Shown: one piece after another, positions 305-62,225 of the stretch | Position numbering within the stretch: position 1 is the stretch's first letter | Layout: each line of letters starts with the position of its first letter | DNA from: Liolophura sinensis | Taxonomy: Eukaryota > Mollusca > Polyplacophora > Chitonida > Chitonidae | Direction of reading: 5' to 3' | NCBI RefSeq assembly: GCF_032854445.1 | Contig: NC_088303.1 | Location: 5,153,501-5,217,500 of the forward strand | Length of the DNA: 64,000 nucleotides | Position numbers and translations under genes: made by a program | The notes under the pieces: generated by a model | What the model saw: only the letters and a program-made list of their open reading frames with translations | Told to the model about the DNA's origin: nothing | The model's database searches: none

Positions 305-24417
<24,113 letters not shown>

Positions 24418-26896: not shown

Positions 26897-27098
26897 TTTA
26901 TTTATTTATTTCATTGGTGTTTTACGCTGTACTCAAGAATATTTCACTTATGCAACGGCGGCCAGCATTGTGGTGGGAGGAAACCGGGCAGAGCCTGGCG
27001 GAAACCCACGACCATCCGTAGTTTGCTGTCAGACATTCCCATGTATGGTCGGAGAGGGAACCAGCATGAGGTGGACTTGAACTCATGGCGACTGCATC
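26897..27098 (-). mobile_element. 5'-truncated family A SINE with target duplication
   Basis: Carries the tail and body of family A but stops within the region after the B box (minus-strand start near GATGCAGTCGCC). It is flanked by the perfect 10-bp repeat ACAAAAATTA (26887-26896 and 27099-27108), so the truncated form itself was inserted. The copy at 40694 stops at the same point. Confidence 0.88.
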
Positions 27099-28127
27099 AC
27101 AAAAATTAGTATGTGGCCTTAATAGCAAATCAGTGCCAGATTTATTCATATAAAACTACTATAATGCAGCTCATAAATGTCCAGTAATCAAAGAAACCTT
27201 GTAGTGTTTCCTTAATTTTGATTTCAGTGTAAAAGGCAAGGTTTTCTTATTGTGATTTCTTACTGAAATTGTGATTGCAGTAGATTTTCCCCATTATTGC
27301 GGCCAGATTTATGAGCACAAATCTGGAGAGTTAAAATTTCACAATATGCCTGGCTTGTCTCCCTTTAATTTTGAATTGTTATTACGCAATGCGGACTCAT
27401 TCATCTAGCGACCGTGGACCATGTCTCACAGACTGTTAAATTTTATGAAACATGACTCATGAATGAAAGCACAACAACATCACAACATTCTGATAACAAA
27501 GAGAGATGTATTTATGTATTTGGTTTTGAACTAATCAAGAATACTTCTGATATATGCTCTGGAGACCTGAGTGCCTGGAGTAAACCACTGACATTTGTCA
27601 GGTAGCTGGCCACCCTGTTGACTAAAAGCTGCAACTAAAAGAATGAAAACATAAAATCTCAGTGGTCAAGTGTCTGATAGTTTCCAGGCATTGGATGAGC
27701 AATGTAAATTGAACAGCTTGTATAATATTACACAGAGAAGCAAAAAAAATAAGTGAATTATTTTCATGTTAAATTTTGTCTTTGTGGAGGAATTTTACCA
27801 GTCATGCCAAAAGGTGGGTAAGTTTGAATATCTGCAAATTGTTACATTTCGTAATAATCAAGAATATTTCGTATTCAGTTTTATGGGCAATCGAAGTGCT
27901 TGGAGTAAACCGTGAACCTTTGACAAAATACATGCACTTTCCTACATGTGATGCACACCACAACGATGGAAGACAAGCGGTCTTCATCGAATATAAGAGC
28001 ATATATGGAAGCATATTTATAGACAATTATGGGTAAGAATTGTCCGACATGAATTGGCACTCACTGACAAGACCAAACTTGATGTAAGGTAGAGTTACGT
28101 CCCTTGACAATACCATCATGCGTGAGA

Positions 28128-35300: not shown

Positions 35301-38300
35301 TATATTTGATTTATTTTATTGGTATAATACGTTATCCTGGACTACATCATATGCAGTATTTTCCCTTAACATTTCAATTAAAAAAAAATAGATTTTTAGT
35401 GGCAAAGGTCAGAAACTGTTACTTAAGGTGCTAAATTCACCCTTTCACACTAGAATATCATCCTAACTTCCATACAAACCAGAACATATGTCTTTAAAAT
35501 GAATAGAACTCTTGGAATAAGGCAAAATTATTAACATAGTCGGGGTCAAAATTTTAGTTCAAATATATTATATGATGGTTGTCTGGTTTACCAGGTCAAC
35601 AGCTAGCCAACAAATCAGCCAGAGTGCCAGCAAGTTAGTCTGTCAGTGAGCCAACCAGTCATTCATCAGCCACTAATTCACTCAGCCAGCCGGCCATATA
35701 GCTAGTTAGTCAGACAGCCAGCAAGTTAGCCTGTCAGTGAGCCAACCAGTCATTTATCAGCCACTCATTCACACATCCAGCCGGCCAGCCAGCTAAGTCA
35801 GACAGCCAGCTAGGCACCAAATAAGCAACAAGCAAGCTGGCCAGCCAACTAGTCAGTCAGCCAGCCAACCAGCTAGCTAGTCAGTCAGCCAATCAGCTAG
35901 GCACCCAACAAGCAACAAGCATGTTGCCTGCCAACCAGCCAGCACTTCACTGAGCCAGCTAAGTACTCAACAAGCAAGAAGCAAACTGCCTAGCCAACCT
36001 GTCAGTCAGCCAGCAAGTGAGACAGTCAGACAGACAGCTGGCACACTACCCAACAAGGCAGCCTGCTAGCCAGTCAATTATCCAGATTTTCTTTTGCAAT
36101 CCAAACAAGTGCTGTAACGTTATCGATTCCTTACCTTTAGGCAATGATGAGAAGGAGTCTGTGCATTGCCAAACACAAGCTGTGGACTTCAACTGATCGG
36201 GAGATCTGAAAATTGCATACTTAAGGAGTAAGAAATAAGACATTTTAAACCTCCTAACAAGCCACACAAGTTTTGTAGATAAATGCGTGAATTATGAAAA
36301 ACATTTTCAACTCTACACTTCTTATACAACGAACACCATTAAATCAAATAAAATGTGCATTAACCTTGAAGGCAATAAAACATGAGAAAAAAAAAACAAC
36401 TTGTAGCTGGTTGACAACTGACAGATTACGTGTATATCACAAGACTTACCCAAGTGATTGGGTGTTCAGAACCTGACCTAAGCCTATCACAGACTGCACC
36501 ACTTCTATCACAGCATTCCTGATGGACCTTCGCAACCTCAGTCCTATTAACAGCAAACAAGTCCAGTTGTAGTATTACAGAATAAACTAACGGAATTGGG
36601 AATAAGGTCACAGCAATTAAAATTTTCATTTTATAGGCAGAATTACTTTTTTCTCCGTGTCGAAGGAGGTCATAAAAATAAAACTGAAAAATCACCTATT
36701 TTGTAGGAAATGTGAACTGTGCCTGCAATTGTTTCTGTTAAAGTCATATTTATGTTATTGGAAAGCATTGAAAAAAAATACAAAACAGAATCACTAAAAA
36801 CACAATTAAGAACAGTCACAATATAAGGCAGATTTTCATTTTGTTAATATCATTTTTGGATTTTTTAGTGCTGACTTGCCTGTAAAACATAAAATAAAAT
36901 TGTTGTTGCCTAATAGTTAACAAACGTATTGTACGAGGTATTCAGATTATGTAGAGAAAATAAACTCAAATTTGTAAATCATATTATATTAAACTATAAT
37001 TCTTTATTTAACCATTTTATTGTTATTTAATAGAAACTTCATTTTGGCTTATTGGTGAAGAAATTGAAGTTCCAAGAGTGAATCATCCTTCGTCAAGAGT
37101 GAGTGAGTGAGTGAGTGCTTGGGGTTTAACGTCGTACTCAACAATTTTTCAGTCATATGACGACAAAGGAATCCTTAGGGTGCATGCACGTGTAATGTGC
37201 CTCCTTGTTGCAGGACGGATTTCCACCGCTCTTTTATTTAGTGCTGCTTCACTGAGACGACTTACCAAAGGCAAGTAAGCCGCCCCGCCCGAGCCATTAT
37301 ACTGATACGGGTCAACCAGTCGTTGCACTATTCCCTTCATGCTGAACGCCAAGCGATGAAGTTACAACTTCCTCTTTTAAAGTCTTAGGTGTGACTCGAT
37401 CAAGGATTGATCCTGGATCTACCAACTGTGCTATCCGGGCCGGTTTCCTTCGTCAAGAAGTACAATACACATAAACACACACCCTGACTAGAAGCTGCTG
37501 CTTAACGAGTAAGATTAGTTTGTTTATTTAACTTGGTTGAAATAATGCACAAGTTGAACAGCCAGGAAGCAGGGTCAACAAATCAGTATATCTACATATC
37601 GGTGAAATACCTTGAGATTTTGGTAATGAGTAGAACGCAGAAACCATCATCAGAGTGGCCTTTTCTACTCTACCGATGATCTGCTCACAATGCTGAAACA
37701 CAGGATCACATAGAATTAGTCAGTCTAGAGGTTCAGCCGTACAACGACGAAACGTCATTAGGTGTGTGTGTGTACATATACTGTGGCTTCTAGTGGTAAG
37801 GCAAATCCATACCACCAAAATGATGCAGCCACTGAAGTATCGTGACTAGGACTCCAATGTAACACCCCATCCAGTCACATTATATTGACACAGGGTCAAT
37901 CACTCCCGTTACCTTGCTCTAACCTCTCTGCGCTGAGTACTAAGCCAGGTAAGAGAACAGCCCACATTAAAACATAATGCCATCTCCCACAACCTTACTT
38001 TCCCTGCTAAATGGGACAGCTGCGGGGACATCGCTACTGGTTGTGTCATTCCTTGTTGCATGTATGAATATATATAGCTTCTCTTTTCAAACTACATGTT
38101 GCCTTGTCTTGTTTTATATATATTGATGTATTTTCTGATAATACTCTGAAGTACACATGTTTCCTGAATATTTGTTTTCTCTGAGAAAGCCTCGGGGAAG
38201 AACAGTTTCATTGTAAACTGAACAAGCTGCCTTTGATAAATAAAGACATTATTACTATTATTATCACAGGATGTCAAAAGTTGACCAATCAGCAGACCAG

Positions 38301-41300
38301 GTGAACTGTCACAGCTGTTAAACTTATGCTTAACAGAAAACATTGTATAAATATTCTTGAGTACGGTGTAAAACACTGAGCAAATAAATAAATATATAAA
38401 GAAATAAATAAAAGAAAACAATGCTTACTTCCACTGGTGGCACTGGAGGCTTAGAGAATACCATGGACAACTTGGTTACCTCTGCAGATACAGCCTGGAC
38501 TGATGTTCCTTTGAAAAATAACACATTACAAAAAGTAAAGAGGCAACCACAGAAGTTTTAAATTTGGAAATATATACATGTAAATTACTTCACACTCAAA
38601 CGAATGCAGTGACGCCTTGCTATTTCCTGAGCAGTTGATTATTTTTCGAGAATCCACACTTGAGAGTTAGTGGTGTGAGTTGGGATGGGTGACAAATTGT
38701 AACTGAGAGCACCTTTACAGCAGTCCGTAATTCAAACCCACGAACAAAAGGCTCTAAAACATTCAAATATCTCACTCAGCTATCTGAGAAGACCAGACAG
38801 CTGTCTCCTTTTGGACGATTTTAAACGCTCGTTGTGAATCAATCCTTTGTCTGACCGACTGCTTCTTTTCAAAAATAGACAAGTATCAGTATTTAAAATG
38901 GTGCCTAGATATAATCCGATACCAAGCCGATACCGATCTTTGCTTGGGACAAACAGTCATCAGGCATGACCTACAGTGGAAACTCACACAGAACCTGTAT
39001 CAGCAGAGTTACAAAAAACAAAAACAGTTACAAATTCGTGGCTGTCACAGCATACAGAAGAAACGCAAGCTACTTTCTCATTACTTATGGCTGTACGCCA
39101 ACTTTAGTTGTTTCAGTTAATTGCTTTGCTATCTGGAATTGCTGCCTACCAATTCCGGAATGTGTAAGGATAGAAGGTAAGAGTATATAAATTTTAACGT
39201 CATGTTATAAACGGCCTTTGTAGAATTATGGCCACTAAACAACCTGCTGATGAACAGATATACTGGGTCTGATCAGAAGTATACTTTGAAATTTATTTTC
39301 AGAAAGATAAGTTATCACAACAAATAAAAGCCACAATAGGTATCCAAATATTTATTTACTTGACTTCTGTATCTGGCCTAAAAATTAGCCGTTAAAGCAC
39401 CCCCAAATGTGAACACAAACAACAAAACATTTAGCACAATCCAATTATACCAAGTAAAAAACTATTATTTCATGTTATAGAAGAATTAACAAAAGGACAA
39501 TTAGAAATACTAATACTAATAAATATTAGAAATAGGTATTATTTAGGGCAAATAGGTAGAATTTGCAGACATCACATTCAAGACCATTCTTTAACAGTCA
39601 ATCAGTCTGACAGTGCAAATTAAACCATCAAAATGTTACTGGTGTACATCTAACTACAGAGCTTGATATATTTTTTTTTTATCAATTTTGAGTCATTTAA
39701 TATTTTGTAGGAGTCCTCCTGAAAGACCCTGTATCATACCTACCTAACCTATCCCAGAATGCCTGCCTATCAAAGTCTGCTGAGTCACCTCTACTGGTAT
39801 CTCCATCTATGAAAGACAATTTGAACAGCATTGTTTGTGATGGGGACTTCTGAAAAGCAAGTATGAACTGCCACAAGAGTCTCATTAACCAAGGGACTCT
39901 TCAAGTCACAATTTATTACAACTTTGAAACCACATTTTACAACAGAAATCCTAGTTTGCATAGTCTGCAAGCCTTTCCTCTTGTGTGACTGGGTAATTCA
40001 GATACATGTGAAAGGATAGTCTGCCACAGTTGGCATGTTTGTAATATCTGTTTAAAAATAATACAGAACAACCACCTGGAGAAGTTACACTGATGTAAAC
40101 AACTCGTTATGTTAAGTCACACAGATACAATGTCTATCATTTGGTTTTGTTTACCATGGGAAAACTAGTTGCTGGATATAGATATTTATTCATCTGAACA
40201 ATGCTAACACTTCACTCAAACAAACCTACTTCTCCTACATAATGGTAGTTCATTTCATACTGAGTGAAGGAAAAATGGCAGAGCCCATGCTCAAGGTAAC
40301 AGCTACCTTGACAGCTATTTGACATACATGTATCTCCAGACCTAAAGCCACAAACCAAATGTTCTGGTACCTGCATGTATTTAATCCTGTAATCTCATTG
40401 GTCAAGGGTTAGTGGAATTCCACCAGAATCTGCTCATCCACCAAGACAGCTCCAATTTAAATTATCATAGAGTATTGACTTTGTATTTTATGAATTCTTT
40501 GGCCTCATAAAACATGGCTTGTTTCCAATGACCTCACATCTGAACTTTAACAATTTTCCTGATTTTTTACTATATTTTTATTTTTTAACTGGGACAATTT
40601 ATGAAATAAGCTTTTTACTGTTCTTTTTTTTAACATGAGCTTACAGAAAGATTGGCATGGTCACAATCGTGGGCCCTTCTTAAAATCTGTAAAATAAATT
40701 TATTTATTTATCTATTTTACTGGTGTTTTACGTCCTACTCAAGAATATTTCAGTTATTTCGGCGGCCAGCATTATGGTGGGTGGAAACCAGGTACAGCCC
40801 GGGGGAAACCCGCAACCATCCGCAGGTTGCTGGCAGAACTTCCCACTTACGGCCGGAGAGGAAGACAGCATGAGCAGGACTTGAACTCACAGCGACCGCA
40901 TCAAATGCATTAAAAGGGTCATATAGGCCTACTCAGTGGCCAAATAACATTACACACCTCACTGACTTATGCCTATACTACAACCTTTTGCAGACTCTTG
41001 GCTTCTGCCCAGGATTTAGCTCAGTTCTAGCTTTTTTTTTTAATATACTTATATTTTTCTCAATTTTTCGTTGAGTCCACCCATGTTTAGCCGTTAAGAA
41101 TCACAAAGATTGACTCCAAAATTAATGAACAAAATTTGTGAGGCTGTCGAGGGTTACAATGCTTTAGCATAGGAGACAGACCCTCACTAACTGTATATGA
41201 CCTGGATGTGACATACACACTCAACACTCTGATTTGCCATATTAGAAAATAAGGTAAACAATTTGTAAATACATGTACTCCATTTTAACCATTCCGTTAA

Positions 41301-41916: not shown

Positions 41917-44900
41917 ATGGCAGACGATGATTTGGAAGCTATACGTGCCAAAAGGATGGCTGAACTCCAGTCACAAATGGGCGTAAGTGTATGACATATA
42001 TTCACTGTACATTTCAAGACGGATTTCTCGTTTGTTTTCTAAGAAACGAAACATGTCAATGCTACACAAAACACGATATCTGGACCTCGTATAACCTGGT
42101 CCGAGATCGCTCTAACGTCGAGGACCAACCCTAGAACTCTAAGTGAGTTTCATTCAAAATGAAAATGTTCTCATGTTTTCAGCTATCATTTTTTAACCTA
42201 ATCATCAACACTCTTTTAATTTGCTGGTCATCAAAACCATTAGGGATACTTTTGTGACATAAATGAGTAGTAGGCCTATAGAAGCTTTAACGACAACATA
42301 TGTGTAATTAAAAAAAGTCTCAACATGCTTTTTGTAGCCACATAGTCCGAGTACACTGACGGTTTGTTGAGGAATATTTGGATATGCCATAATCATGGCA
42401 GCTCAACAATGTTGTCTCATTGGTGGGGAACAGGCAGAGGCCCAAATAACCACTCCGCTTACCTCTAGCTGGTCAAATCCACATTGTAATTAACATCTCC
42501 CCTTTCAGTTGCCACACAAAATTTTGTAATGATAAACCAATAAAGTTTGACTAGCTACACATCTCCTTTCATGTCGTCCTCTCCTAACAGCAATGAAATG
42601 CATTTGAGAAGTCTTCGAACGACTACTAATATTTACGAAGTTACAGTAGAAATTCATACCTTGTGACATTGGGGTCCTACGTGGCACAGTAGGTTAGCGC
42701 GCTAGTGCAGCGTAATGACCCAGGAGCCTCTCACCAGTGTGGTTGCTGTGAGTTCAAGTCCAGCTCATGCTGGCTTCCTCTCCGGCTGTATGTGTCTCCT
42801 GCGGATTGTCATGGGTTTTCCCTAGGCTCTGCCCGGTTTCCTCCCACCATAAAGTTGGCCGCCATTGTATATCTGAAACATTCTAATCTAAAGACTAATC
42901 AAATACATAAATAAATAAGTAAATTGTGACATTGTACACATTTCTCTACAATGAATTTTTCACATAACAGTGGCTTGAAGTTCTGTTTTACACTAGCACC
43001 TCAGTACAGAGTTATAAAATATGCCACCACTCAATTATATCAGAACTTTCATCAGGTGCTTGTGAAGGCAAGATTCACAAGTGATGGTAAGAAACATTTA
43101 CGGCTGTTCACGTGCATTAAAACTTCCACGTCATAAATTTATGTTCCCACTGAATGTTCCTACATATTAATTAACCTGTTGACAAAAAAAGACAATTTTA
43201 GGGTCTACTGCGGCCACCATCTTGATAACTCGTAAACTGCTTAGAAAATGTGATTTCCAAACAGAGGTGATTGCCATGGACCCTTTTGGTTCAGCGAATC
43301 TCACAACAGGTTAGTTTATTACAGAGACCACACAGTTGACATAGGTTTATGCCAGGAAAGGTTTAATGTGCATGGAAAGATGTGCTAAGTATTCCTTACT
43401 GCTGACATGTTTTGGTCCCAGGAGCCTCTAACCAATGTGAACGCTGTGTGTCCAGCGCATGCTGGCTTCCTCTCCGGTGATGCATGGAAAGGTCTGCTGA
43501 CAATCTGTGGACGGTCGTGGGCTTCCTGAGGGCTCTACCAAGTTTACTCCCATCATAATGCTGCCCATGGTCTTAAAAGTGAAATACTCTTAAGTATGGC
43601 GTAAAACTCCAATCAAATAAATAAATAAATACAAGGTTTAATCCGAGGCTTCCACTATATCATCTCGTTTCATGATAAAATTTCTGTACTTTTTAGGGAG
43701 GTGGTCCATCCAAGGAACAACAAGAACAACAGAGAGCAAGGCAAGAGGAAATGAAAAATAACATTTTGTCTCAAGTCTTAGACCAGTCTGCAAGGGCAAG
43801 ATGTAAGTTTAATATAAAATTCAAAAACACAGGGTTAATATGTTGGGGACATTCTTGTACATGTGCCAACATTTCTTGTGAGAAAACTTGTCTTTGCTGT
43901 AGTGTGTGTTTGCTACAATTTTACTGGGATCAACTGAACCTTGAACCATGTAATGGTTCACTACTGACTTGTTGTATGCCAGGCTTTGAAACACATCAGC
44001 AGGACAGTTTAAGTAAGGGGTTTTGGACTTTATCCTAAATTGGGAATCCAAATTAAAGTCTAAAATGCAAATTTATAAAATTTTGACCACTGATTCTAGG
44101 CTATAGTAGATGTTTAGTTTGGTAATAATTTGCCTTGTAATGAAGATAAAAGGTTTGGACTCAAGCAATAAATGGCATTGCAAAGCTGGCCCAAGGATTT
44201 TATGGAAGTGATCTAAAGTTGAAGCAGTTCTCATTTGTTGTAGCTTTTCAGGAAATTTGTCAGGTATTTGTATCTGCTGGTATTTGACAGGTGGTTTGTG
44301 ACAGAGATAAACTGGACCGTCATTGTGTAGGCGATGTATTCCTGAGTACATAAATGTAAAACCACAATCAAAGAAAGCAATCATACCTCACAAGCAGAAA
44401 GCCAGCCCTGAGATACCCAGGATCTTGTCCAGCGGATTTTTATAATGGACGCTCCAGTTGCCTATAATGCCTTTTACCCCCCAAAAAGATGGTACAAACA
44501 TCAAGCTATAGCCCCATCCCGCATGTCTGTTCTGAACTAATTTGCTGTTTAAGATTGGACTTTTTTTTCCCCATACTTGTGATAAGTAATATCAGAAGTC
44601 CATTACTTAGAAATATGTAACTTTCCTTTAGCTAGTTTCCACATCACAGTACATATGTTACGTCATCTTTAGAAGCTAGCACTATCTGTAGACTGAACGT
44701 GTAACCCCTGACAAAACGGTACGTAAATCAGATCAGATCAGGTGCCCTTTGGTTGTTACTTACACCCCATCCTTATAAGGCTAGAATAGGCCCTGATACA
44801 GTGTGTATTGATTTATCTGGCGGACAGCTACAGGTTGAGAAGCATATGAGCCAAGTTGATGAATCGTTTCCTCTTCCCTTTTTGTGGATCAGTTGTATTT

Positions 44901-46106
44901 ACTCCAAAACGCTGTCTTTGACTTAATCTTTTCACACAAAACCATTTAAAATTTTGCAGGAGCACCGTATATCATAGATTTGTGGATTTGTTTTGTTTTT
45001 TTGCAGTAAACACGATCTCTTTGGCAAAGCCAGAAAAAGCACAAGCTGTTGAGAACATGTTGGTACAGATGGCAAGAATGGGTCAGATACAGGAGAAGGT
45101 AAGAGTCACCCAAATCATCAACTGCTATATTTATACAATTTATTACATTGCGGTCCAGCTATGTTTGACCAGGGAGATATACCTGTATATTTGTGTTGTG
45201 TACATAGGAACAAAGAGATAGACAGACAGAAAAAGAACATACAGCACTCTAGTATACATATATGTTGTGACCCATTTACAGATTTTTACATGTGCAATGT
45301 GGTTATTCCCCTGTCCTCTGGTTATAAAATTAGCCATGGGCTAGGGAGACTAAATGTGTTCGTCACTACCTAAGTCTATGAGGTCACTGGTTCAATCCAG
45401 ACCTTGGCGGGGCTCCATTCCGTTTCCCTTACCCTTATAAAACAGGGTCACCTGCTTAATAATTAAAAAATTGTCAGCATGTCCTAAAACAGCAACCAAA
45501 TGAATCTAGTTTTTGTGTAGAATGAAAAGGCTTCTGGTTTAAGTGTTTTTTTTTGTGTATTGATAAAACAAATTGCATAAATATACCTGCATGATCTTTG
45601 ATTGTGTTGATGTTCTGTGTAAAAGCAAGGATTTAACAATTATCATTTTCAGCTCAATGAAGATCAGCTGAAGGGATTATTAGGACAAATCAGTGAAAAA
45701 ACACAGAAGAAAACAACAGTTAAGGTGAGTTTTACTTTTTCCAAAATTCACAAGTTGTTCCTGTTGTGTCAGATATGGCTAAGCTTTCTCAGGTCTGTGG
45801 TCTGCACAGATGCCATTAGGCTATAGAACGGAACGGGCAGAGTAAACTTGTAGCAGGCTGCTAAAAGCTGTCTGTTTTTGTCCTTAATTAGGTCACATTG
45901 GCGTTATCTAAGAATAATTATCCAAGAAAGACAATCATAATGTTTGGCATTTCACTGGCTTTGTTGTGAAATGACAACAGACCAACGACATTAAACCCCT
46001 AGCTACAAATGAAGCTAAATGTGAAGAAATGCAGTTGACGGTTGTTAACCTGATGTTTCTGTTTTAGTTTAACAGAAGGCGTATGGATGATTCAGATGAC
46101 GACTGA
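41917..46106 (+). CDS. PDCD5: Programmed cell death protein 5, complete
   Basis: Small conserved helical protein (TFAR19) that in known species moves to the nucleus during apoptosis and binds the CCT chaperonin and TIP60. Exons 41917-41982, 43697-43802, 45007-45098, 45653-45724 and 46068-46106 join without a phase break to 375 nt, 124 aa, against 125 in human. The sequence reads MADDDLEAIRAKRMAELQ, then a Gln-rich linker, NNILSQVLDQSARARL, NTISLAKPEKAQAVENMLVQ, MARMGQIQEK and a C-terminal FNRRRMDDSDDD. The acidic end with Ser121 matches the CK2 site region of the family. The start is the only ATG giving the conserved N-terminus. Intron 1 holds two family A SINEs. The gene diverges from CCNDBP1. 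Confidence 0.97.
42672..42923 (+). mobile_element. tRNA-derived SINE, family A, with 11-bp target duplication
   Basis: The head has GGCACAGTAGGTTAGCGCGC and GAGTTCAAGTCCAGCTCATG. The body ends AATCAAATACATAAATAAAT. The perfect direct repeat TTGTGACATTG lies at 42661-42671 and 42924-42934. It is in PDCD5 intron 1, in the gene's orientation. Confidence 0.92.
43418..43633 (+). mobile_element. Older 5'-truncated family A SINE
   Basis: Starts in the head at CCCAGGAGCCTCTAACCAAT and continues with GCATGCTGGCTTCCTCTCCG, a TAAGTATGGCGTAAAAC segment and an AATCAAATAAATAAAT tail. The A box is lost and the body is diverged. It lies about 60 bp before PDCD5 exon 2. Confidence 0.85.
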
Positions 46107-46418: not shown

Positions 46419-46870
46419 GTTTCAATTTTTTGTGTAGCAGGGCATATTTTTCAAGAAGTTAATGACTTAAACTGGATTGAAAGCTTCTTTGAGATTCGAT
46501 AAATTTGTAATGACAGTTTAAAGAAGTATGTGTATCGTTTTTATTTTTTGTTTTGAGGTACTTTTGATTGAATTGAAAACTGGAGATACTTTCTAACTTG
46601 TGCCATATTATTCTTCTTTTGTCAGTTTATTCCCACTTTTCACTCTGTCAGTGGTAATTACCGGTATTATCATCATGAAGCTGAAAATAAAAACTTTCAA
46701 ATTTAGAAGCCAGGCACGAACTTTACTGGAAGATGGGGCAGGTTAAAGGCAAAAAAAAAACCAACCACAGTAAAATGAAGTATATATCAGATGAAAGACC
46801 ATTAAACATGGCCCAGGAAAATAATTCAGTGTATTTTTTTGAGTTTTCCAATTGTCTAAAATGTGTAATG

Positions 46871-46953
46871 CATTAGAATCTAGTGGTCTGTAGTGATACA
46901 TTAGAATCTAGTGGTCTGTAGTGATACATTAGAATCTAGTGGTCTGTAGTGAC
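46871..46953. repeat. 28-bp unit repeated three times
   Basis: Three consecutive copies of ATTAGAATCTAGTGGTCTGT plus AGTGATAC, essentially identical. A weaker echo is at about 47080. Confidence 0.9.
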
Positions 46954-47957
46954 CCAGAGGCTGTAAGTGACGTCACATCCATATTTTTTGCTTGACAGTG
47001 TTCATTAAAACAACCATTTTGCCAGTGTATTCATACACTGTATATACATATCTGTATATTTAAGCATTTATAATGATGAAATCTAGCAGTCTGTGTGTGC
47101 TAAGTGGCAAAAAACTGATGTGATGTCACTGGTCACAAAAGGCCACCTTAGAATCCCAAGTTTCAAATGCATTTAAAAAAAAAAATAAATCCATATCTTG
47201 CAGACGGTGTTTGATGATCATCGTCTGGTAGATACTTCATGTTTTTTGTGTCTTCTTTGCCTGTAAGTGTTGTTAGGGATGTACTTTAGGAGAATGAAGA
47301 TAATAAATAAACAGGATCAAGTTATGAGATTGAAGTCTATATACATGTATGTAAGTGACAGGACTTACCAGTTGAGGATTTGAACCAGCGATCTTTGGGT
47401 TTGGAGTCTAAGCTTCTACCACTAAACTGAAGGGAAATTACCTCCAGCTGGGAGGTAGATAGCGCTTATGTATCACTCTGTTACATGAACAGCTGTATAT
47501 TGGTCTGGTTATTGTGTCATGCCTACATGAAGGTGTGCCCACCAAGAGGAAGCCACATACCACATATCACCTATACTCACTTAACATTGCGAACTGTAGT
47601 ACAAAAAGTGATTATTTGGTGAAAAATTTTGTCAAGTTATATGTGAATTACTGTTTGTCAGAAAATTTCACATCTTAAAGCGTTCAGTTGGTGAAAAAAT
47701 TCTTTAAATTATGTGAGTTACTATAGCTGAATTGGCTGACTAGTGTCCGTCAAAGCGTCTCATAATAGCTCAGGTGACTCTAATTTCACATCATGTATTG
47801 AGGTTTCTTATTTTAGATCATTACAATGTCAAGGTAAATTTTTTCACAACTTGTTGTCTGTAACCATGTGTAAGACATTGTGTAAATGTATGGCTTGTGT
47901 GGAATAAATTGTGCTTTTTGTGATAATTTGGGGTCCAAACATGACCATTTCTAAAGG

Positions 47958-48870: not shown

Positions 48871-49894
48871 CTATATTGTTATATAAGGTTTTCATACAAC
48901 TGATTTGTAATGTAATAGAACATGTCAATGTAAAGCCAAAAAAGACAGACATGTTAAGGAAATTATTTTATTTAAATTTCTTTATCACACTTTTGCTTCA
49001 CCTTGACCCATTTTTACAAAACATTCCATTTTTACAAAACATTTATAAAAGGAGACAAATGTTACATTTTATAAGAGAGAACACAGTACCTGAACTGTGG
49101 ATATTCCACTATATATATAATGTTTATAACTTAACAGTGTGTATATCAAAAACATACACATATTCATATTGCCAAACCGAAGTCCGACAGTATGTTGGGT
49201 AACAGGTGAAGGCTGGTGATTTTCTCTCCACACTCCAGTTTCCTCCATACTTACACTTCACAGCCATCTCGCAGGTGGAAAATTCTGATTGCCATTGTAT
49301 AATAAAGTGATAATTTTGAGTATGGCATCAACCACATATCAAATAAATACATACACATGGTCAAATAACAATATTGGTTGTCAGAAGAGGTTTGATTGAA
49401 TTGAGGACATCTGTGTCCAGTTGTGGGTCTGCCCTGTCAATTCTTTACCATGTTCATTTTTACAGCAGTTTCTGGGGGCAATTTGCAGATTCTAGCATTG
49501 GAAGAAAGTATTTTGGAAGATCTGAGACCTCTTTCAGCTTGGTTTCAAAATGTTTCTAATAGCTACCATAATAAAATTTAAAAAAAAAAATAATCAGCTT
49601 AAAAAGATAAATTTATTATATCATTCATTAAACTTCTATCCTGAATCATGAAAAAATCAAGTATTGTATTCATCCATTAATGTTCTTCACACCTTTCAGA
49701 GCTTAACTTTCCACTGAGAATTCAGGAATTAGAACTCCAATAACTACAACTAGAAGATCTGCTTGATTTCCATACAAAAAATTAACATTCAAATTAAACT
49801 TTTTATCTCAATAAATAATATCTTGTTTCAGATCATTAGCATTCTGAACATGGAATTCCCCAAATTTGTTGACTTTCATGTGTATGTATGTGTG

Positions 49895-50283: not shown

Positions 50284-53200
50284 TCAGATAACTCTCTTCA
50301 TTTCATTTGGAAACAATTCCTTGAGAAGTTCTTTCTTGTTCACTTTCCCAATAGGGCTCCTTGGCATCGCAGGCAGGACTTTCATCACAGTTGGAATCTG
50401 ATAAGCTGCCATCTTGTCCTTGGCCCATTCTCGGATAGACTCGAGGGAGATAACTGTGTCATCTCTAAACACCACCACCAGGGCAACTCGCTGACCCCAT
50501 GTGATATCCGGCAGGCCCACAACTGCGCAGTCTATAATATTGGGATGTGCCAGTAGATGGCGTTCTACGTCTAATGCGCTGATCTTATAACCACCACTTT
50601 TGATGACATCAACAGAAGTTCGGCCTATAATTCTGTACACTCCCTTCTCAAACACAGCGGTATCACCTACAAAATTGAGTGGACATAAAACATTTTTTAC
50701 ATTTAACTCATCTCGTTGGTAACAACAAATTAATTTTCCATTTTTATTTCTCTTCATTTGTGAGATTATGACAGAAGTCACACCTGGCATCTGGTGAGAA
50801 TTCCACGAGCTAAAGCTATCTGAAAATCAAGTTTAGAGGCCACATGCACAGGAAGTTACCACCTCAGTCGAACCTCAGTGTTAGACAAAACTTGTCCAAG
50901 CCAATGAGTGCATGAAACAAATTACAAGTCAAACCCAAAGGCTGACATAAATTTTAATGGCCTTTGGCTCATAAATCATGTCACAAAAAGACAAAATAAT
51001 TTAGACAACATTAACAAAAGAAATTTAGTTTACAAATTTTAGTGAAAGTGGCTCCAGGTGTTCGTGTTGTGTCCATTGTGGTATTTAACCTTTTCTGTTG
51101 GTAATGAGACGACTGACCTGTTTTAAACCAGCCATCTTTACTGAAGGCTGCCTGGGTCTCCTCAGGCCTGTTGTAATATTCTTTGAACACCCCAGATCCT
51201 TTCACCAACAGTTCCCCCTGCTCGCCCTCAAAACCTACAAAACAAGTGATACAACTATTATCTTAATGTGCTTATAGCTGATGAAAAGATACAAGCTCTG
51301 AGAAAAATCATGAACAAGAAAAACAAACCTGTTAATAATGGCAACCCACCCTGACAAGACAGCCCACCCAGACATGACACCCCTCCCAAACATGACACCC
51401 TACACAGACATAACAGCTCATCCTGCATGACATCCCACCCAGATATAACATCCCACCCAGACATGACAACCCATCCAAACAACACCTCACCCAGACATGA
51501 CACTTCACTCAGACACGACACCCCACCAAGGCATGACACCCCACCCAGACATGACATCCCACTCAGACAATGCACCCACCCAGACATAACACCTCATTTA
51601 GTTCTGTTTTAAAACTTTAGCCTGACACCCAAGTTGGCTGTACCTGGTATGGTGTGACTCCCCCTGGTGTTTCCTCGCGTGATGACATCATATCCATACT
51701 CCGCATACACGTTGTTCCTGGCTATGCAGACCTCTACCCCAGGCATGGGTGTCCCAACGGAACCTGAAAGTACACAACATCCACTTCAGCAAAATACACA
51801 CCTTTTATCTAGTGTCTGGACACCAGGGTTTGTAGCAGCTTCAAGCAACACCATTGCCTGTTTATCTGCTCACTGCTTCTTAAAACAGGCAATCCTTTGC
51901 TTTCTTACATGATGCTAAATTTTCTCCTGTGACATCACCTGTCAAAGCACACAGGTATGTGAATGTTACCTGGGACCCTGGGTCCATGGAGGGGGTTACT
52001 GAGGGCCATTCCTATCTCCGTCATCCCGTATCTCTCCAGCAGACGGTGTCCTGTTATCTCCTCCCACCTGTCCATGATTGGCTGAGGCAGGGCAGCTGAT
52101 CCACTCACCATCAACCTGGCCACAGGATCAGACTATTATTGACAGACCCACAAGTTAGGAATTATACACCACAGCAGTGTCTAATAGGCCAAACCAGTTT
52201 GAATTTTGGGGGAAATTTTCAATGCCATCCTTAAAAAATTCTTTATAGATCCTACCCAAAAAATGCGAAAGGGAATTTTATTTATTTATCCTGACTAATG
52301 AAAATTTCAATAAATACAATTTTGGAGGGTAACACATTTGAGATAATTTTTCTTCATTTACATACAGGTACCTATTATACATATTTTCTTTGGATTTGGA
52401 ATGCTAGTTTTGTGTTTACCTTATCCGCGACATGCAAGAAGACCTGACGTATTCCTTCATCCAGCGTGACCCACGACCCCGATTAATCCGTGTGTCATAG
52501 TTTTCTATCAGTTTGGCATACACTGTGGGCACAGCCATAAAAAGGTTGATTCGCTGGGAATTGTTGCCCGCCACGGGATTCAGCAGTCTTGACCATACCT
52601 GAAGGAAAGCAGGCAATTATTTACGTGCATGCAGTTAGGTCTATTCTGTCAGGTATATATCAATAATATATATACTCTTTATTTTCCAGCAACCTGTGGA
52701 CGGTGGTGCACTTCCCCTGGGCTGTGGTTGGTTTCCTCCAACCACAATGGGGGCTGCGGTCATATAAGTAAAATAAATCTTGAGAGCAGCATAAAAAATC
52801 AATCAAATACATCAATAAATATTATTTGATTGTTGTTTAATGCCATAATGAAGAATTCTTCACTTCAGCTATGGCAGCCAGTTTTGTGAGTGGAGGAACT
52901 TCAGTTCCCAGAGTAAACCACAAACCGCTGGTGAGTTACTAGTGATCTATGTCATACTGGTGAAAGGCATGTACTGTATGGAAAACTCCCTTTCAAGGTC
53001 ACCCAAGAGAATACCATAGAATGTTTAAAGTAAAAGATAGCTAAAATATGAAGTACGTTTCATCATACAGACAACTGAAAACTATTCCTAAAAATACTTT
53101 CATTAATTTTTATGAGTGTTGAAAGGCATTAAAATATTTGAATTCTATGGTGGGTTTTATGAGCCATACTGACGGTATCTAGGATCTCTGACATCACATC

Positions 53201-56200
53201 AGCTCTATGGTGGGCTTTCCATGAGCCATACTGACGGCATCTAGGATCTCTGACATCACATCAGCTCTATGGTGGGTTTTCCATGAGCCATACTGACGGT
53301 ATCTAGGATCCCTGACATCACATCAGCTCTATGGTGGGCTTACCATGAGCCATACTGATGGTATCCAGGAACTCTGACATCACATCAGCTCTATGGTGGG
53401 CTTTCCATGAGCCATACTGACCGTATCTAGGATCTCTGACATCACATCAGCTCTATGGTGGGCTTACCATGAGCCATACTGACGGTATCTAGGATCTCTG
53501 ACATCACATCAGCTCTATGGTGGGCTTACCATGAGCCATACTGACGGCATCTAGGATCTCTGACATCACATCAGCTCCATGGTGAGCTTACCATGAGCCA
53601 TACTGACGGTATCTGGGATCTCTGACATCACATCAGCTCCATGGTGGGCTTACCATGAGCCATACTGACGGTATCTAGGATCTCTGACATCACATCAGCT
53701 CTATGGTGAGCTTACCATGAGCCATACTGACGGTATCTAGGATCTCTGACGTCACATCAGCTCTATGGTGGGCTTACTATGAGCCATACTGACGGTATCT
53801 AGGATCTCTGACATCACATCAGCTCTATGGTCAGCTTACCACGAGCCATACTGACAGTATCTAGAATCTCTGACATCACATCAGCTCTATGGTGGGCTTA
53901 CCATGAGCCATACTGACGGTATCTAGGATCTCTGACATCACATCAGCTCTATGGTGAGCTTACCATGAGCCATACTGACGGTATCTAGGATCTCTGACGT
54001 CACATCAGCTCTATGGTGGGCTTACTATGAGCCATACTGACGGTATCTAGGATCTCTGACATCACATCAGCTCTATGGTCAGCTTACCACGAGCCATACT
54101 GACAGTATCTAGGATCTCTGACATCACATCAGCTCTATGGTGGGCTTACCATGAGCCATACTGATGGTATCTAGGATCTGTGACATCACATCAGCTCTAT
54201 GGTGAGCTTACCATGAGCCATACTGACAGTATCTAGGATCTCTGACATTACATCAGCTCTATGGTGGGCTTACCATGAGCCATACTGATGGTATCTAGGA
54301 TCTCTGACATCACATCAGCTCTATGGTGGGCTTACTATGAGCCATACTGATGGTATCTAGGAACTCTGACATCACATCAGCTCTATAGTGAGCTTACCAT
54401 GAGCCATACTGACGGTATCTAGGATCTCTGACATCACATCAGCTCTATGGTGGGCTTACCATGAGCCATACTGACGGTATCTAGGATCTCTGACATCACA
54501 TCAGCTCCATGGTGGGCTTACCATGGGCCATACTGACGGTATCTAGGATCTCTGACATCACATCAGCTCTATGGTGGGCTTACCATGAGCCATACTGACG
54601 GTATCTAGGATCTCTGACATCTCTGACATCACATCAGCTCTATGGTCAGCTTACTATGAGCCATACTGACGGTATCTAGGATCTCTGACGTCACAGCAGC
54701 TCTATGGTCAGCTTACCATGAGCCATACTGACCGTATCTGGGATCTCTGACATTACATCAGCTCTATGGTGGGCTTTCCATGAGCCATACTGATCGTATC
54801 TAGGATCTCTGACGTCACATCAGCTCTATGGTGGGCTTTCCATGAGCCATACTGTTGGTATCTAGGAACTCTGACATCACATCAGCTCTACGGTGGGCTT
54901 TCCATGAGCCATACTGACAGTATCTAGGATCTCTGACATCACATCAGCTCTATGGTGAGCTTACCATGAGCCATACTGACGGTATCTAGGATCTCTGACA
55001 TCACATCAGCTCTATGGTGGGCTTACCATGAGCCATACTGACGGTATCTAGGATCTCTGACATCACATCAGCTCTATGGTGAGCTTACCATGAGCCATAC
55101 TGACGGCATCTAGGATCTCTGACGTCACATCAGCTCTATGGTGGGCTTACTATGAGCCATACTGACGGTATCTAGGATCTCTGACATCACATCAGCTCTA
55201 TGGTCAGCTTACCATGAGCCATACTGACAGTATCTAGGATCTCTGACGTCACATCAGCTCTATGGTGGGCTTACCATGAGCCATACTGACGGTATCTAGG
55301 ATCTGTGACATCACATCAGCTCTATGGTGAGCTTACCATGAGCCATACTGACAGTATCTAGGATCTCTGACATTACATCAGCTCTATGGTGGGCTTACCA
55401 TGAGCCATACTGACGGTATCTAGGATCTCTGACATCACATCAGCTCCATGGTGGGCTTACCATGAGCCATACTGACGGTATCTAGGATCTCTGACATCAC
55501 ATCAGCTCTATGGTGGGCTTTCTATGAGCCATACTGACCGTATCTAGGATCTCTGACATCACATCAGCTCCATGGTGAGCTTACCATGAGCCATACTGAC
55601 GGTATCTAGGATCTCTGACATCTCTGACATCACATCAGCTCTATGGTGAGCTTACCATGAGCCAGACTGACGGTATCTAGGATCTCTGACATCTCTGACA
55701 TCACATCAGCTCTATGGTGAGCTTACTATGAGCCATACTGACGGTATCTAGGATCTCTAACGTCACATCAGCTCTATGGTGAGCTTACCATGAGCCATAC
55801 TGACCGTATCTAGGATCTCTGACATTACATCAGCTCTATGGTGGGCTTTCCATGAGCCATACTGACGGTATCTAGGATCTCTGACATCACATCAGCTCCA
55901 TGGTGGGCTTACCATGAGCCATACTGATGGTATCTAGGAACTCTGACATCACATCAGCTCTATGGTGGGCTTACTATGAGCCATACTGATGGTATCTAGG
56001 AACTCTGACATCACATCAGCTCTATGGTGGGCTTACCATGAGCCATACTGATGGTATCTAGGAACTCTGATATCACATTAGCTCTATGGTGAGCTTACCA
56101 TGAGCCATACTGATGGTATCTAGGATCTCTGACATCGCATCAGCTTTATGGTGAGCTTACCATGAGCCATACTGATGGTATCTAGGATCTCTGACATCAC

Positions 56201-59001
56201 ATCAGCTCTATGGTGGGCTTACTATGAGCCATACTGATGGTATCTAGGAACTCTGACAACACATCAGCTCTATGGTGAGCTTACCATGAGCCATACTGAT
56301 GGTATCTAGGATCTCTGACATCACATCAGCACTATGGTGAGCTTACCATGAGCCATACTGACGGTATCTAGGATCGCTGACATCACATCACCTTTTTTTC
56401 CTGATGTTCACCAGAAGGAAGGAATTTTTGAGAACATTATTTCAGCAATGTTTTACTCATAGGTAAAAGAGTTATTCCAACATTCGGTGTCATGATTACA
56501 GTTGGAAAAAGTTCCTGTGACGTCAGAGTTCCTAAACTCTGATAATATGGTCCTTAAAGCCCACCGTAGAATTCAAATGTTTGAATGCCGCTTCACAAAA
56601 ATCTATAAAAAAATAAATGAAATTATATTTATGCATAGTTTTAAATGGTCTATTTAGTGATGCCTACGTTGATTTTTATATGTTTTTTCCTTTCAAGCCA
56701 ACAAGACCCTGAGAACAATGGATTATACCCATGAAAACACAAGGGAGATAAATGTAAGTCTTGTGCAACAACCATAAAACAGGGAGAGAACTCCGTCCCT
56801 GTAAGTCCAAAACAACCAGACAGCGATACATATACATCACACAATCACCAGATGAAATGTTACTACCCTAATTCTTCAACCTTTTCGAGCAGCTTTCAGT
56901 TAAATTTATGCTCGTTTCAGGACACAAAACCACCCCAATTTCAGGAATTCACAAGAAGTATAATTTCATCAGTCTACACAGAATAATGCCCTTAGAATTT
57001 ACTTGAATAAACACCTTGCAAACATGTAGAAAGGTCGAATTAATTTATTTATTTGATTGGTGTTTTACAGCGTACTCAAAAATATTTCACTTATACGACA
57101 GCGGCCAACATTATGGTGGGTGGAAACCGGGCACAGTCCGGGGAAAACCCACAACCGTCCGCAGGTTGCTGACAGACCATCCCACATGCAGCCTGAGAGG
57201 AAGCCAGCATGAGCTAGACATGAACTCACAGTGTCCGCACTGGTGAGAGACTCCTGGGTCATTACGCTGTGCTAGCGCGCTAACCAACTAAGCCATGGAG
57301 GCCCCCACAGAAAGGTCGAAGAATTATAATATAACATGACTTGTCCTCTCAAGATTATCTGAGCTGTTTTCAATACAGGGATCAAAACCTTTCCTCATAT
57401 TTTCTTCACATTACACAAGCAATATGTAATAATACAAATTAATTACATAATTTATAATAATCGTTTCCACAGGACATACCATATTAGCATCAAACTTTGG
57501 CAGCATTATGCAGGTGGCTCCACAATGAAGAGGGGTGACCAAGGTATTAATTATCCCATGGGTGTGATGCAGAGGCAGCACATGTAGTATGACATCAGAT
57601 GCTCTCCACTCCCAGGCATGTATCATGGACTCTACCGCTGAATACACATTTCCAAAAGTCAATACTACACCCTGTAATTAGGTACAAAATTAAAATAAAA
57701 AGAAACCACAGTATTTTGAAAGTCTAATGAAAAGCTTCACTTTACAAGGCTAATTTTATTACTTCCTACAAAGAGGTTACGTTTTTGCTAGTGTTTATGT
57801 GCCTGAATGTCTCTTTGTGCTTGTCTGTTGGCAGCTCTGCAGAACAAATAATACATAACAAATAAATTTTAATAAAATATTTTTTACAGACTGGGCTTAC
57901 AACCAATATATTAAATTTTGGTGTTAATCCAGGCCCGGACAAAATGGACATCATTTTACTGAAAACAGATGAAATGGCCAAAAACTTGAACTTGACATGT
58001 AAGTCATCCTGGCAAAACCATGCACCAGACACATGGTCATAGCAGGTCATGGATTTCAATTCAATAAGAATCAATGAAAAAGTTTTGAAAGGTAAAAAAA
58101 GTGTAGAAAACGGATTACAGACTGACTGACAGACTGACAGATGAGACAGAAACCTACTGCCCTCTGCAGTACAGGAAGGGAACTACTAAATATATCTTAC
58201 ATGTGGCATGAGGTTGTTTATTAGTTATACTCCATATTTTTGACTCCACTTTACCTTGGGCCTTCCAGTTGTACCACTGGTGTAAACAATCATTGCTGGA
58301 ATCCGTTTGTAACTATTGTTCATCAGCAAATCATCAAATCTATTTTTCAAGCGTAATCTGCGCACTTTTTTCACAACCACATCAGTTTGGAACCATTCAT
58401 TGTCTGCTGGCAGATAACCTGAACTTATGGAAGCTGTTGACAAAACTTTAATAGGTATGTTTGTCCTTTGGGCCAGTTCCTTTCCAATGTTTGTGAACTC
58501 TTCTGACACGATTATCGACGAACACTGAGAGTCCGTCACGAAATATTCCAGTTCGCTAACCGGATGTGTCTTACACAGTGGCACCACCACGCCCCCAGCC
58601 ATCCAAACTGACCACTGACCAATCACATAAGAGCCGTCATTGCCACACAGTAATGCGACACGGTCACTGGTCAGATGTTCTCTGCCATACAACTGCTGGA
58701 CTTCTTTGGACAAGACAGCACTATAGTGTAACAAATCAGCATAGCTGAAGACTTTGTGACAATCTATCAAAGCTGTTTTGCTAAGGAAATTTTCTGCCCT
58801 CAAAAATACAGGAGTAACCAGATTCTGTCGCTTAGTGCTATACACTGGCCGACTGTAGCCACGTTGGTTTCCATGGAAACCCCAAATTAAACACGCTGAT
58901 GGCTGAACAAGTCTGTGTGGTCTATCACATTTCAGGAGACGAAGAATGTTTAAGCACATTTCCTGATATCCACACATCCTCTTAGAGCCATGCAACATCA
59001 T
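50284..59001 (-). CDS. ACSF3: Mitochondrial malonyl-CoA/acyl-CoA synthetase (ACSF3), complete
   Basis: Activates malonate (and methylmalonate) to the CoA ester in the mitochondrial matrix, feeding mitochondrial fatty acid synthesis in known species. Coding exons on the minus strand: 59001-58255, 57671-57480, 52598-52420, 52115-51970, 51763-51644, 51234-51118 and 50666-50284. All phases agree, giving 1884 nt, 627 aa (human 576). The N-terminus is rich in basic residues and poor in acidic ones, as expected of a mitochondrial presequence. Adenylation motifs: [12 protein letters not shown] (about 238-249), [10 protein letters not shown] (280-289), [11 protein letters not shown] (402-412), DGWFKTGD (about 495-502), [16 protein letters not shown] (515-530) and the catalytic-lysine motif [10 protein letters not shown] (Lys608). 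A pyrimidine-rich AG at 59034 suggests a non-coding 5' exon upstream. I took the first ATG after it, which is followed directly by a second ATG. Coding intron 2 is 4.9 kb and holds the 62-bp array. Confidence 0.96.
51345..51602. repeat. 18-20 bp minisatellite in ACSF3
   Basis: Tandem degenerate copies of CACCCAGACATGACACCC in the intron between the exons at 51234 and 51644. A minus-strand 109-aa frame ([13 protein letters not shown]-like) is a by-product. Confidence 0.88.
52687..52820 (+). mobile_element. Family A SINE 3' half
   Basis: CCAGCAACCTGTGGACGGTG, then GGTTTCCTCCAACCACAATG and an AATCAATCAAATACATCAAT tail. The head is missing. It lies just upstream of ACSF3 coding exon 3. Confidence 0.75.
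53020..56690. mobile_element. TIR element carrying the 62-bp array (DNA transposon or MITE-like)
   Basis: The sequence left of the array (AAAACTATTCC at about 53079, TTTCATTAATTTTTATGAG, GGCATTAAAATATTTGAATT then CTATGGTGGG) reappears inverted to its right. There the reverse complement from about 56645 inward reads AAAACTATGCATAAA, TTTCATTTATTTTTTTATAG, then GGCATTCAAACATTTGAATT and CTACGGTGGG. Similarity covers at least about 80 bp per arm and probably more outward. Outer ends and target duplication were not resolved, so the limits are approximate. No transposase frame was seen. Confidence 0.7.
53147..56392. repeat. 62-bp satellite array, about 52 copies, in ACSF3 coding intron 2
   Basis: Unit: ATCAGCTCTATGGTGGGCTT, ACCATGAGCCATACTGACGG, TATCTAGGATCTCTGACATC, AC. 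Copies are 90% or more alike, with shared variants (GGTGAGC or GGTCAGC for GGTGGGC, GACGTCAC for GACATCAC). A few copies have a 9-bp duplication (TCTGACATC). It is the longest array in the window. The unit matches the inner part of the flanking inverted repeats. Confidence 0.97.
57040..57308 (-). mobile_element. tRNA-derived SINE, family A, with 12-bp target duplication
   Basis: Full-length copy with head (TTGGTTAGCGCGCTAGC on minus) and tail. Perfect direct repeat AGAAAGGTCGAA at 57028-57039 and 57309-57320. It lies in ACSF3 coding intron 2, about 170 bp from the exon at 57480. Confidence 0.93.
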
Positions 59002-60300
59002 AATGTTCAGGACTGGATGTATTTTTGTAAAAGCTAAAAAGGAAGAAAAAAAGTTAGACATGTACATTAAAAAATGACATCACAGCAAAACAATACTTCA
59101 TTTATCGAATGGATGGGTGTTCAGCACTCTACTGAGAAATATTTCATTTATATATGTATTTATATGGCTGGTCAGGTTTATGACTGGAAGGAGTCCCGAG
59201 ATCTTAGAGGTAAACAACCATCTGTATCTGGCCACATATTTGCCAGATCTGCTACCAAAAGCCACATCCACAGCACCTAATGCCATCGTGGCCTCTTGGC
59301 GAGGATAACTCATTGTGGGCCAAGCAAAAGCAGGGTGAAATCTCTCAAAAAGTTGATTCGAGTAGCCAAGTGACTTTAACTATAAATAATGCCCCTTAGT
59401 TGAATGTTTTGTTTACCATACATGGGTTAATCATTGAATGAATGGACTCCTAGCTATTTATTATACACTAAACATTACACAATATGAGATGACAATGACC
59501 GATCAAGTGAGAGAGTCTGACACTGGAAGGAACACCAGCTGTTTGAAAAGAATACATCTTTCGTGGATGTAACAGGTTAAGAATTAGCAAACATGAGTTT
59601 GCCTTTAAACTGATTTTATGCCCTCCAAAGATGATAACCCGATAAACATGCAAAACCCCGCTAGTCGTTTAGATCAAGTGCAAGTACTACTGAATTGAAG
59701 AACAGTAAACAGAATCTTGCTATCATGACAACCAAGAGGAAATTTCTTTCTCCCTACACCCATTGGAGTACACCTTTCACTTACTGCCTCTTAGCGTACT
59801 GTGTAGGCCTAATGTAAACCCAAGGATGCAGCAAGGAAAACCCCGCTAGTCGTTTAGATCAAATGCCAGTACTACTGAACTGAAGAACAGTAAACACTAT
59901 CTCGTTATCATGACAACCAGAGGTAATCTCTTTCTCCACACACCTACTGGAGTACACCTTTCACTTACTGCCTCTTAGTGTACTGTGTAATATAGGCCTA
60001 CAAAGTACAAGACTACATAAATACACAAGGCTACGATACATGCAAATTCACATGCAAATTCACGTGCAAAGCCAAGGCCGTTAAATGTAAGGCAGTCCAA
60101 AATACAAAAGCCGCTCTCTTACAAAATGTATTATATCCACGTACATGTATAACTTCCTTCGAGTGCTCTGTCATCAACTGTTTTAACTGTACTTAGTTCT
60201 GCACAGTAAAGGACAGAGGCAAAGTTGTATCCACTACACCCTCGTAAAGCGAAACCGGCGCACAGGGCGCAGACATCTTGGCTGTTGCTTTATGGGAGCG
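59002..60300 (-). promoter_or_regulatory. ACSF3 upstream region (5' UTR exon and promoter expected here)
   Basis: The acceptor at 59034 implies an upstream non-coding exon. A more GC- and CpG-rich patch at about 60225-60300 contains CCAAGATGTCTGCG on the minus strand, a context often seen near initiation sites. Neither the exon nor the start site is proven. A 160-bp duplication sits between. Confidence 0.35.
59652..59999. repeat. Direct duplication of about 160 bp
   Basis: 59652-59810 and 59837-59999 both begin AAAACCCCGCTAGTCGTTTA and both contain a GGAGTACACCTTTCACTTAC block followed by TGCCTCTTAG and TACTGTGTA. Copies are roughly 85% alike and 26 bp apart. Confidence 0.92.
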
Positions 60301-61989: not shown

Positions 61990-62225
61990 CGTTGCCAATT
62001 CCATCCCATCAATATGCAAGGCGCCGCCTAGCAAACTCCATCCCACCAACATACAAGGCGCTGCCCAGCAAACTCCATTCAACCAACGTACAAGGCGCCG
62101 CCTAGCCAATTCCATCCCATCAATATGCAAGGCGCCGCCTAGCAAACTCCATCCCACCAATATACAAAGGCGCTGCCCAGCAAACTCCATTCAACCAATG
62201 TACAAGGCGCCACCCAGCTAAACCG
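61990..62225. repeat. 37-bp minisatellite with trimeric order
   Basis: Six copies of a 37-38 bp unit in the order A-B-C-A-B-C, where A starts ATGCAAGGCGCCGCCTAGCA, B starts ATACAAGGCGCTGCCCAGCA and C starts GTACAAGGCGCC. This makes a 111-bp higher-order unit. Echoes of the unit with a flanking CTGTTGCC(A/C)TGCATG block occur at about 62230-62320 and 62710-62770. Confidence 0.92.

Follow-up and report, generated by a model that had tools for sequence, protein, structure and literature searches.

A 62-bp tandem array probably born from the terminal inverted repeat of a short intronic transposon

In the 64-kb stretch of Liolophura sinensis DNA analysed here (the window), a 62-bp tandem array lies inside the left terminal inverted repeat (TIR) of a short element, and its unit is homologous to a single-copy segment of the opposite arm. 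Judged from sequence comparison, the locus very probably represents an old, non-coding and non-autonomous transposon with TTAA/AG ends that sits within an ACSF3-like gene, in one of its introns; in this element, the left subterminal segment would have been duplicated, expanded and homogenised. An earlier note on this DNA had described an array between inverted arms and had derived its unit from those arms; the observation is confirmed, in a stronger form than was claimed, and the central interpretation of the unit's origin is supported.

The array and its place in the left arm

TRF placed the array at 53144-56390 (+), with a period of 62, 52 copies and 92% matches. Unit alignment and unit-to-unit similarity delimit the same feature, and a separate split gave 52 units, in line with the roughly 52-fold amplification previously proposed: 47 units are 62 bp long, three are 71 bp, one is 60 bp and one is 66 bp. 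The 60-bp unit is the first of the array and the 66-bp unit, which has trailing Ts, is the last; a 9-bp duplication is identical in all three 71-bp units. The mean pairwise difference among units is 0.068 (1326 pairs, gap columns counted), and the 52 units make up the long, homogenised head-to-tail array expected of a satellite. As that term also implies a genome-wide family, abundant at many loci or in heterochromatin, the array is at most a candidate satellite.

Within the array, an exact 224-bp repeat occurs at 53641 and 53889, 248 bp or four units apart. Adjacent units were more alike than in permuted order (lag 1, 14 of 2000 permutations as low), as were units at lag 17 (18 of 2000), both modest results among the 26 lags examined. 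Together, the similarity of neighbouring units and the exact internal repeat may be read as modest traces of unequal exchange. An exact search with the unit pattern returned no match in the prokaryotic genome contigs or in the viral contigs, a result that says little for an animal sequence.

The array is flanked by inverted arms at 53029-53198 and 56516-56691. Arms in these positions had been described before, and their presence stands; the coordinates given then (53079-53160 and 56540-56645) were too narrow, as homology extends over 53024-53198 and 56516-56696. The TIR of the element is about 170 bp long. The outer part of the left TIR (53029-53143, +) is identical at 88 of 114 ungapped columns to the inverted outer part of the right TIR (56571-56691, -), which ends in AGGAAAAAA when read inwards. 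Aligned by themselves, the outer arms (53040-53142 against inverted 56571-56690) scored 90, and the best of 1000 dinucleotide-shuffled pairs reached 51. When the 350-base flanks of the array were compared as an inverted repeat, the score was 104, as against 69 for the best of 600 control pairs drawn elsewhere in the window with gaps of 30-900 bases. A permissive alignment carried the arms outward to 52733-56947; this extension was rejected as gapped noise beyond 53024.

The same flank comparison was applied to 14 tandem arrays of the window. Only two of them, both inside copies of the element, had flanks that beat all 600 controls, and for the second copy the lead was narrow (a score of 70, with 69 for the best control). 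The flanks of the other 12 did not rise above the 600 controls; the best of these, at 49008-49043, scored 52, a value reached by 9.5% of controls.

Homology between the unit and the opposite arm was assessed with a profile of the 52 units. The right-arm row was present while the unit alignment was built and was taken out before the profile was made. On the window with the array masked, the top match was the right arm itself (56570-56516, minus strand, E 1.4e-6). The second, weak match fell in the right arm of a second element (47134-47115, E 0.17), and the third, at 50792, was at chance level (E 3); the reversed control window gave no match up to E 10. The segment at 56516-56570 (-) is a diverged single homologue of the unit within the right TIR (73.7% over 57 columns), with 45 of 59 positions identical to the unit consensus and 43 of 60 identical to the first unit. 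Both earlier statements on this point are thereby borne out: the unit aligns with the inner part of the arms, and the right arm holds one diverged copy.

The left arm continues on the far side of the array. Downstream of the last unit there is TGACRTCACA with a T-run a few bases later, as in the TIRs of the other arms, and the resumed sequence (TGACATCACATCACCTTTTTTTCC) matches the T-run that follows the same motif there; the remaining TIR and the element centre occupy 56391-56515 (+). Because TIR sequence continues after the last unit, the array is located inside the left TIR. At its other edge the left arm leads directly into the array, as the earlier note had it: the first unit (53144-53203, +) is part of the left TIR in both the arm and the unit alignments. 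Two bases are missing from this 60-bp unit and from the right-arm copy and are present in units 2-52. This shared absence favours the view, already put forward, that the unit arose by amplification of a subterminal stretch of the TIR in which it lies. The same view is backed by the right arm being the top match of the unit profile, by the continuation of the TIR past the array and by a second copy of the element that is free of the 62-bp array.

Element ends and a second, diverged copy

When the arms were searched with BLAST, a second, diverged copy of the element came up at 46747-47262 (46743-47266 with boundary bases). Its left TIR (46747-46870, +) and the inverted right arm (47155-47262) are identical at 81 of 104 ungapped columns (128 columns with gaps); the right TIR as a whole spans 47115-47262 (-) and carries the TGACATCACATCAG motif. 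With a profile built from the two arms of the first element alone, the best matches outside that element were 47256-47111 (E 4.7e-6) and, below the inclusion threshold, 46772-46846 (E 0.014). The reciprocal profile, built from the arms of the second copy alone, found 53035-53208 (E 0.0036) and, likewise below the threshold, 56678-56501 (E 0.022). These E-values are to be taken with caution because the composition-bias terms in the AT-rich arms are large (8.8 to 17.1 bits) and comparable in size to the scores themselves (11.1 to 22.9). Against the reversed control, the arm profiles gave no match up to E 1.

Edge bases included and extra units set aside, the first element is 487 bp long and the second 470 bp, and the two align end to end. 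With all units kept, the whole-length alignment scored 146 in forward and 149 in reversed orientation; with one unit kept it scored 169, forward being the only orientation scored. The centres of the two copies gave 36 and 35 by orientation, neither being better, and we do not assign the two expansions to the same arm. In all eight comparisons, the 200-base flanks of one copy matched those of the other no better than shuffles did, and therefore the copies are not a segmental duplication. Immediately outside the boundaries, 1 to 5 of 20 bases match in five of the six end pairs, and 10 of 20 match between the left end of the first element and the right end of the second.

In place of a 62-bp array, the second copy carries a perfect 28-bp x 2.9 tandem repeat (GAATCTAGTGGTCTGTA) at 46871-46952 (+; TRF, 100% matches). 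It occupies the subterminal segment equivalent to GAATTCTA-GGTGGGCTTTA in the first element. When the 28-mer at 46870-46897 was compared with the arms, shuffles did as well in 9 of 2000 cases for the right arm of the first element, 25 of 2000 for the right arm of the second and 104 of 2000 for the left arm of the first. Because the repeat copies are free of differences and the arms are not, this duplication looks young relative to the element that contains it.

Several other resemblances to the arms were set aside. In pairwise tiling, an AT-rich segment at 36721 tied with the second copy at 75 against the right arm, and a segment at 3511 scored 67 against the left arm, compared with 74 for the second copy. 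These two, together with 28486 and 58996, were rejected as further copies, since the three arm profiles, read up to E 1, returned none of them. Two matches that the arm profiles did return, 27782-27731 (E 0.42) and 60956-60822 (E 0.59), were taken as chance. Two copies within one 64-kb window, each short and TIR-flanked, suggest that the element may be a MITE.

Read inwards, the four ends are TTAA followed by AGTAAAAGA and TGAA followed by AGGAAAAAA in the first element, and TTAA followed by AGGCAAAAA and TTAC followed by AGGCAAAGA in the second copy. The left boundary of the first element (53025-53028, +), a putative target duplication, reads GTTTAA ahead of AGTAAAAG, and arm homology stops at 53024; the right boundary is at 56692-56695 (-). 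In the second copy, the boundary sites lie at 46743-46746 (+) and 47263-47266 (-). TTAA is exact at two of the four ends and one change away at the other two, and on the + strand the target duplications are imperfect, with TTAA...TTCA in the first element and TTAA...GTAA in the second copy. The duplication sought at the outer ends of the first element is thus visible in part: TTAA is intact on the left, and the right side has TTCA.

At all four ends, AG directly follows the TTAA-like site. The relevant passage on Kolobok elements gives a TTAA target duplication and 5'-RR termini (PMC9587614), and all four ends begin with RR. Xenopus T2-MITEs are described in a passage of PMC6004289 as combining TTAA with AGGRR; the corresponding bases here are AGTAA, AGGAA, AGGCA and AGGCA, of which one is exact and the others are one change off. 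The piggyBac terminus CC[C/T]T, as given in part of PMC2872659, occurs at none of the four. Kolobok/T2-like is on these grounds the likelier superfamily, though not a proven one. Another TTAA or TA inserter, piggyBac-like or mariner-like, has a real chance of being the source, somewhat short of even: TTAA is altered at half of the ends, a palindromic TA within TTAA would leave much the same trace, and AGGRR is exact at one end of four, but the consistent RR termini and the missing piggyBac terminus, by the same partial descriptions (PMC9587614, PMC2872659), speak for Kolobok.

Gene setting and other features of the window

Exons with AMP-binding matches lie on the minus strand on one side of the first element (57411-57677 and 58225-59079, Pfam). 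On the other side, also on the minus strand, there are exon-like pieces at about 52535 and about 52030, one at 51011-51262 that had no Pfam hit, and one at 50284-50826 that matches AMP-binding_C. Because AMP-binding exons stand on both sides on the same strand, the first element lies in an intron of an ACSF3-like gene; this intron runs from roughly 52.6 to 57.4 kb, and the element makes up most of it. The earlier placement in an ACSF3 intron holds as far as the intron between AMP-binding exons is concerned; for the gene itself Pfam gives the AMP-binding family only, and the name ACSF3 is one that we assume from sequence motifs. The second copy sits between a PDCD5-like gene, whose last coding piece is at about 46071-46106, and the 3' end of the ACSF3-like gene. 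The exons of the PDCD5-like gene span 43697-46106 (+; Pfam dsDNA_bind), and we take its name from sequence motifs together with the Pfam domain.

Six copies of the palindrome TGACGTCA lie in the array; elsewhere in the window it is present at just two positions, 46968 and 56518, each within an element arm. The form TGACATCA occurs 38 times within the array, and TGACRTCACA is kept in all four arms. We take TGACGTCA to be a CRE-like site. A function by way of such sites was considered and set aside; the array is most likely neutral intron growth.

Other genes and repeats were recorded in the window. A Cid1-type poly(A) polymerase gene (1361-1633, -; Pfam PAP_assoc) and a GCIP/CCNDBP1-like gene (31162-31620, -; Pfam GCIP_C) were recognised from their exons. 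TRF listed seven more minisatellites with units of 18-111 bp (693-1326, 15074-15658, 29563-30540, 31633-32341, 35626-35900, 51345-51593 and 61994-62223), none of which had inverted flanks above controls. Open frames at 32951-34490 (-) include a weak Phage_integrase match at 32951-33460 (E 7.9e-6; 26.2 bits against a Pfam cut-off of 27.1), and we take this region to resemble the remnant of a Crypton-type element. Near-identical open frames of 70 residues lie on opposite strands at 19465-19677 (+) and 37149-37361 (-), the former directly 3' of an Rfam tRNA match (19363-19434, 29.2 bits); the pair is possibly a dispersed tRNA-derived repeat. Finally, open frames at 26834-27109, 40634-40913 and 57007-57246 share similar peptide-like stretches and form a dispersed repeat, which, along with 52700-52830, we presume to be reminiscent of mollusc repeats.

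Proposed origin of the array and comparison with known systems

The starting segment of the array is still readable, in that the opposite arm, the edge unit and the second element keep what appears to be the pre-array state. Since this state is apparently kept, a single locus is enough to propose a series of steps: one segment, its duplication, the spread of the two-base variant, and expansion. The ancestral element would have been about 490 bp long, with a TTAA target and AG-ending TIRs of about 170 bp, and would have held one subterminal segment of about 60 bp in each arm, a state still seen in the right arms. A tandem duplication of the left segment would have followed, around the time of insertion or later, probably by replication slippage or by end joining at very short matches. 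Expansion to 52 units and homogenisation may then have come about through unequal exchange and local conversion, and the variant longer by two bases, which is found in every unit but the edge unit, would have spread through the array. If many genomic copies with 1, 3, 10 and 50 units exist, the rate and trigger of satellite birth would become measurable.

More tentatively, the subterminal segment by TGACRTCA could be a recurrent hot spot at which arrays start independently after insertion, here with units of 62 bp and 28 bp. The TIRs of one MITE family would on this reading repeatedly seed arrays, and two stages, of about 3 and 52 units, would be represented in the window. We also consider it conceivable, if rather unlikely, that a short array was already present at insertion, in a transposing subfamily with subterminal repeats, and was expanded later. 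In each of the two copies, the homologous subterminal segment holds tandem repeats, internal repeats are described for the TIRs of Tetris and Galileo in a passage of PMC4079207, and homogenisation could mask a common origin of the two arrays. Yet the unit lengths (62 and 28 bp) and phases differ, and the complete identity of the 28-bp copies, set against arms that agree at 81 of 104 columns, points to separate, later events.

Capture of a pre-existing satellite or minisatellite into the left arm, which would mean that the array was not born from the TIR, has a published model in the capture of tandem repeats by MITEs, proposed for Xenopus miDNA4 in part of a 2025 review (PMC12628747). We regard it as improbable here: the opposite arm holds a single inverted homologue of the unit, in register, and TGACRTCACA, the motif at the unit's end, recurs in all four arms. 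The segment is therefore part of the TIR and older than the array. Slightly less probable still is a local inverted duplication or palindrome beside an ordinary intron minisatellite; the target duplication is not intact and no transposase frame was recognised in the element in the open reading frame list, but the second copy, which repeats the arm anatomy between unrelated flanks, the boundaries at TTAA-like sites and the homology of unit and arm all argue against it.

Amplification of a TIR segment within a transposon, the origin that we prefer, has relatives among known systems, which are compared here by their descriptions in parts of the cited papers. The closest in its ends is Xmix/Xstir of Xenopus, a T2-MITE of Kolobok-like type, which likewise has a TTAA target, a TIR starting with AG and an element segment amplified head to tail. 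The source region of Xstir is given as the TIR in a review table (PMC9659126) and is called an internal segment, not the TIR, in passages of two other papers (PMC6004289, PMC12628747). Xstir differs in being a large repeat family, whereas the present case is one locus with strongly diverged arms; the likeness is one of description, not of sequence. Tetris/TIR-220 of Drosophila virilis also has tandem repeats inside its TIRs; the repeats contain a 37-bp stretch common to the outer TIR and reach up to 66 copies (PMC4079207, in part). By description, Tetris is unlike the present element in being foldback-like, with TIRs of up to 1,735 bp, a unit of about 220 bp and repeats that are a family trait.

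Two further systems share fewer features. The bivalve pearl-family elements (CvA, DTC84) and related satellites are, as here, non-autonomous mollusc elements with satellite-like internal repeats, but they are described as modular, with up to six monomers that do not form part of a long TIR (PMC5139131, in part). The miDNA4 MITE of Xenopus tropicalis carries an array of variable length and belongs to a model in which MITE-borne arrays give rise to satellites; it differs in being of Tc1/mariner type and in having an array thought to be captured, not made from a TIR, according to passages of the 2025 review, which also counts TIRs among satellite sources (PMC12628747). Tandem arrays in or from TIRs are thus already on record in frogs and flies, as far as these partial descriptions go. 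What is new here is a clear case at a single locus with legible anatomy, accompanied by a second, diverged copy of the element that carries a small version (28 bp x 2.9) of the subterminal repeat.
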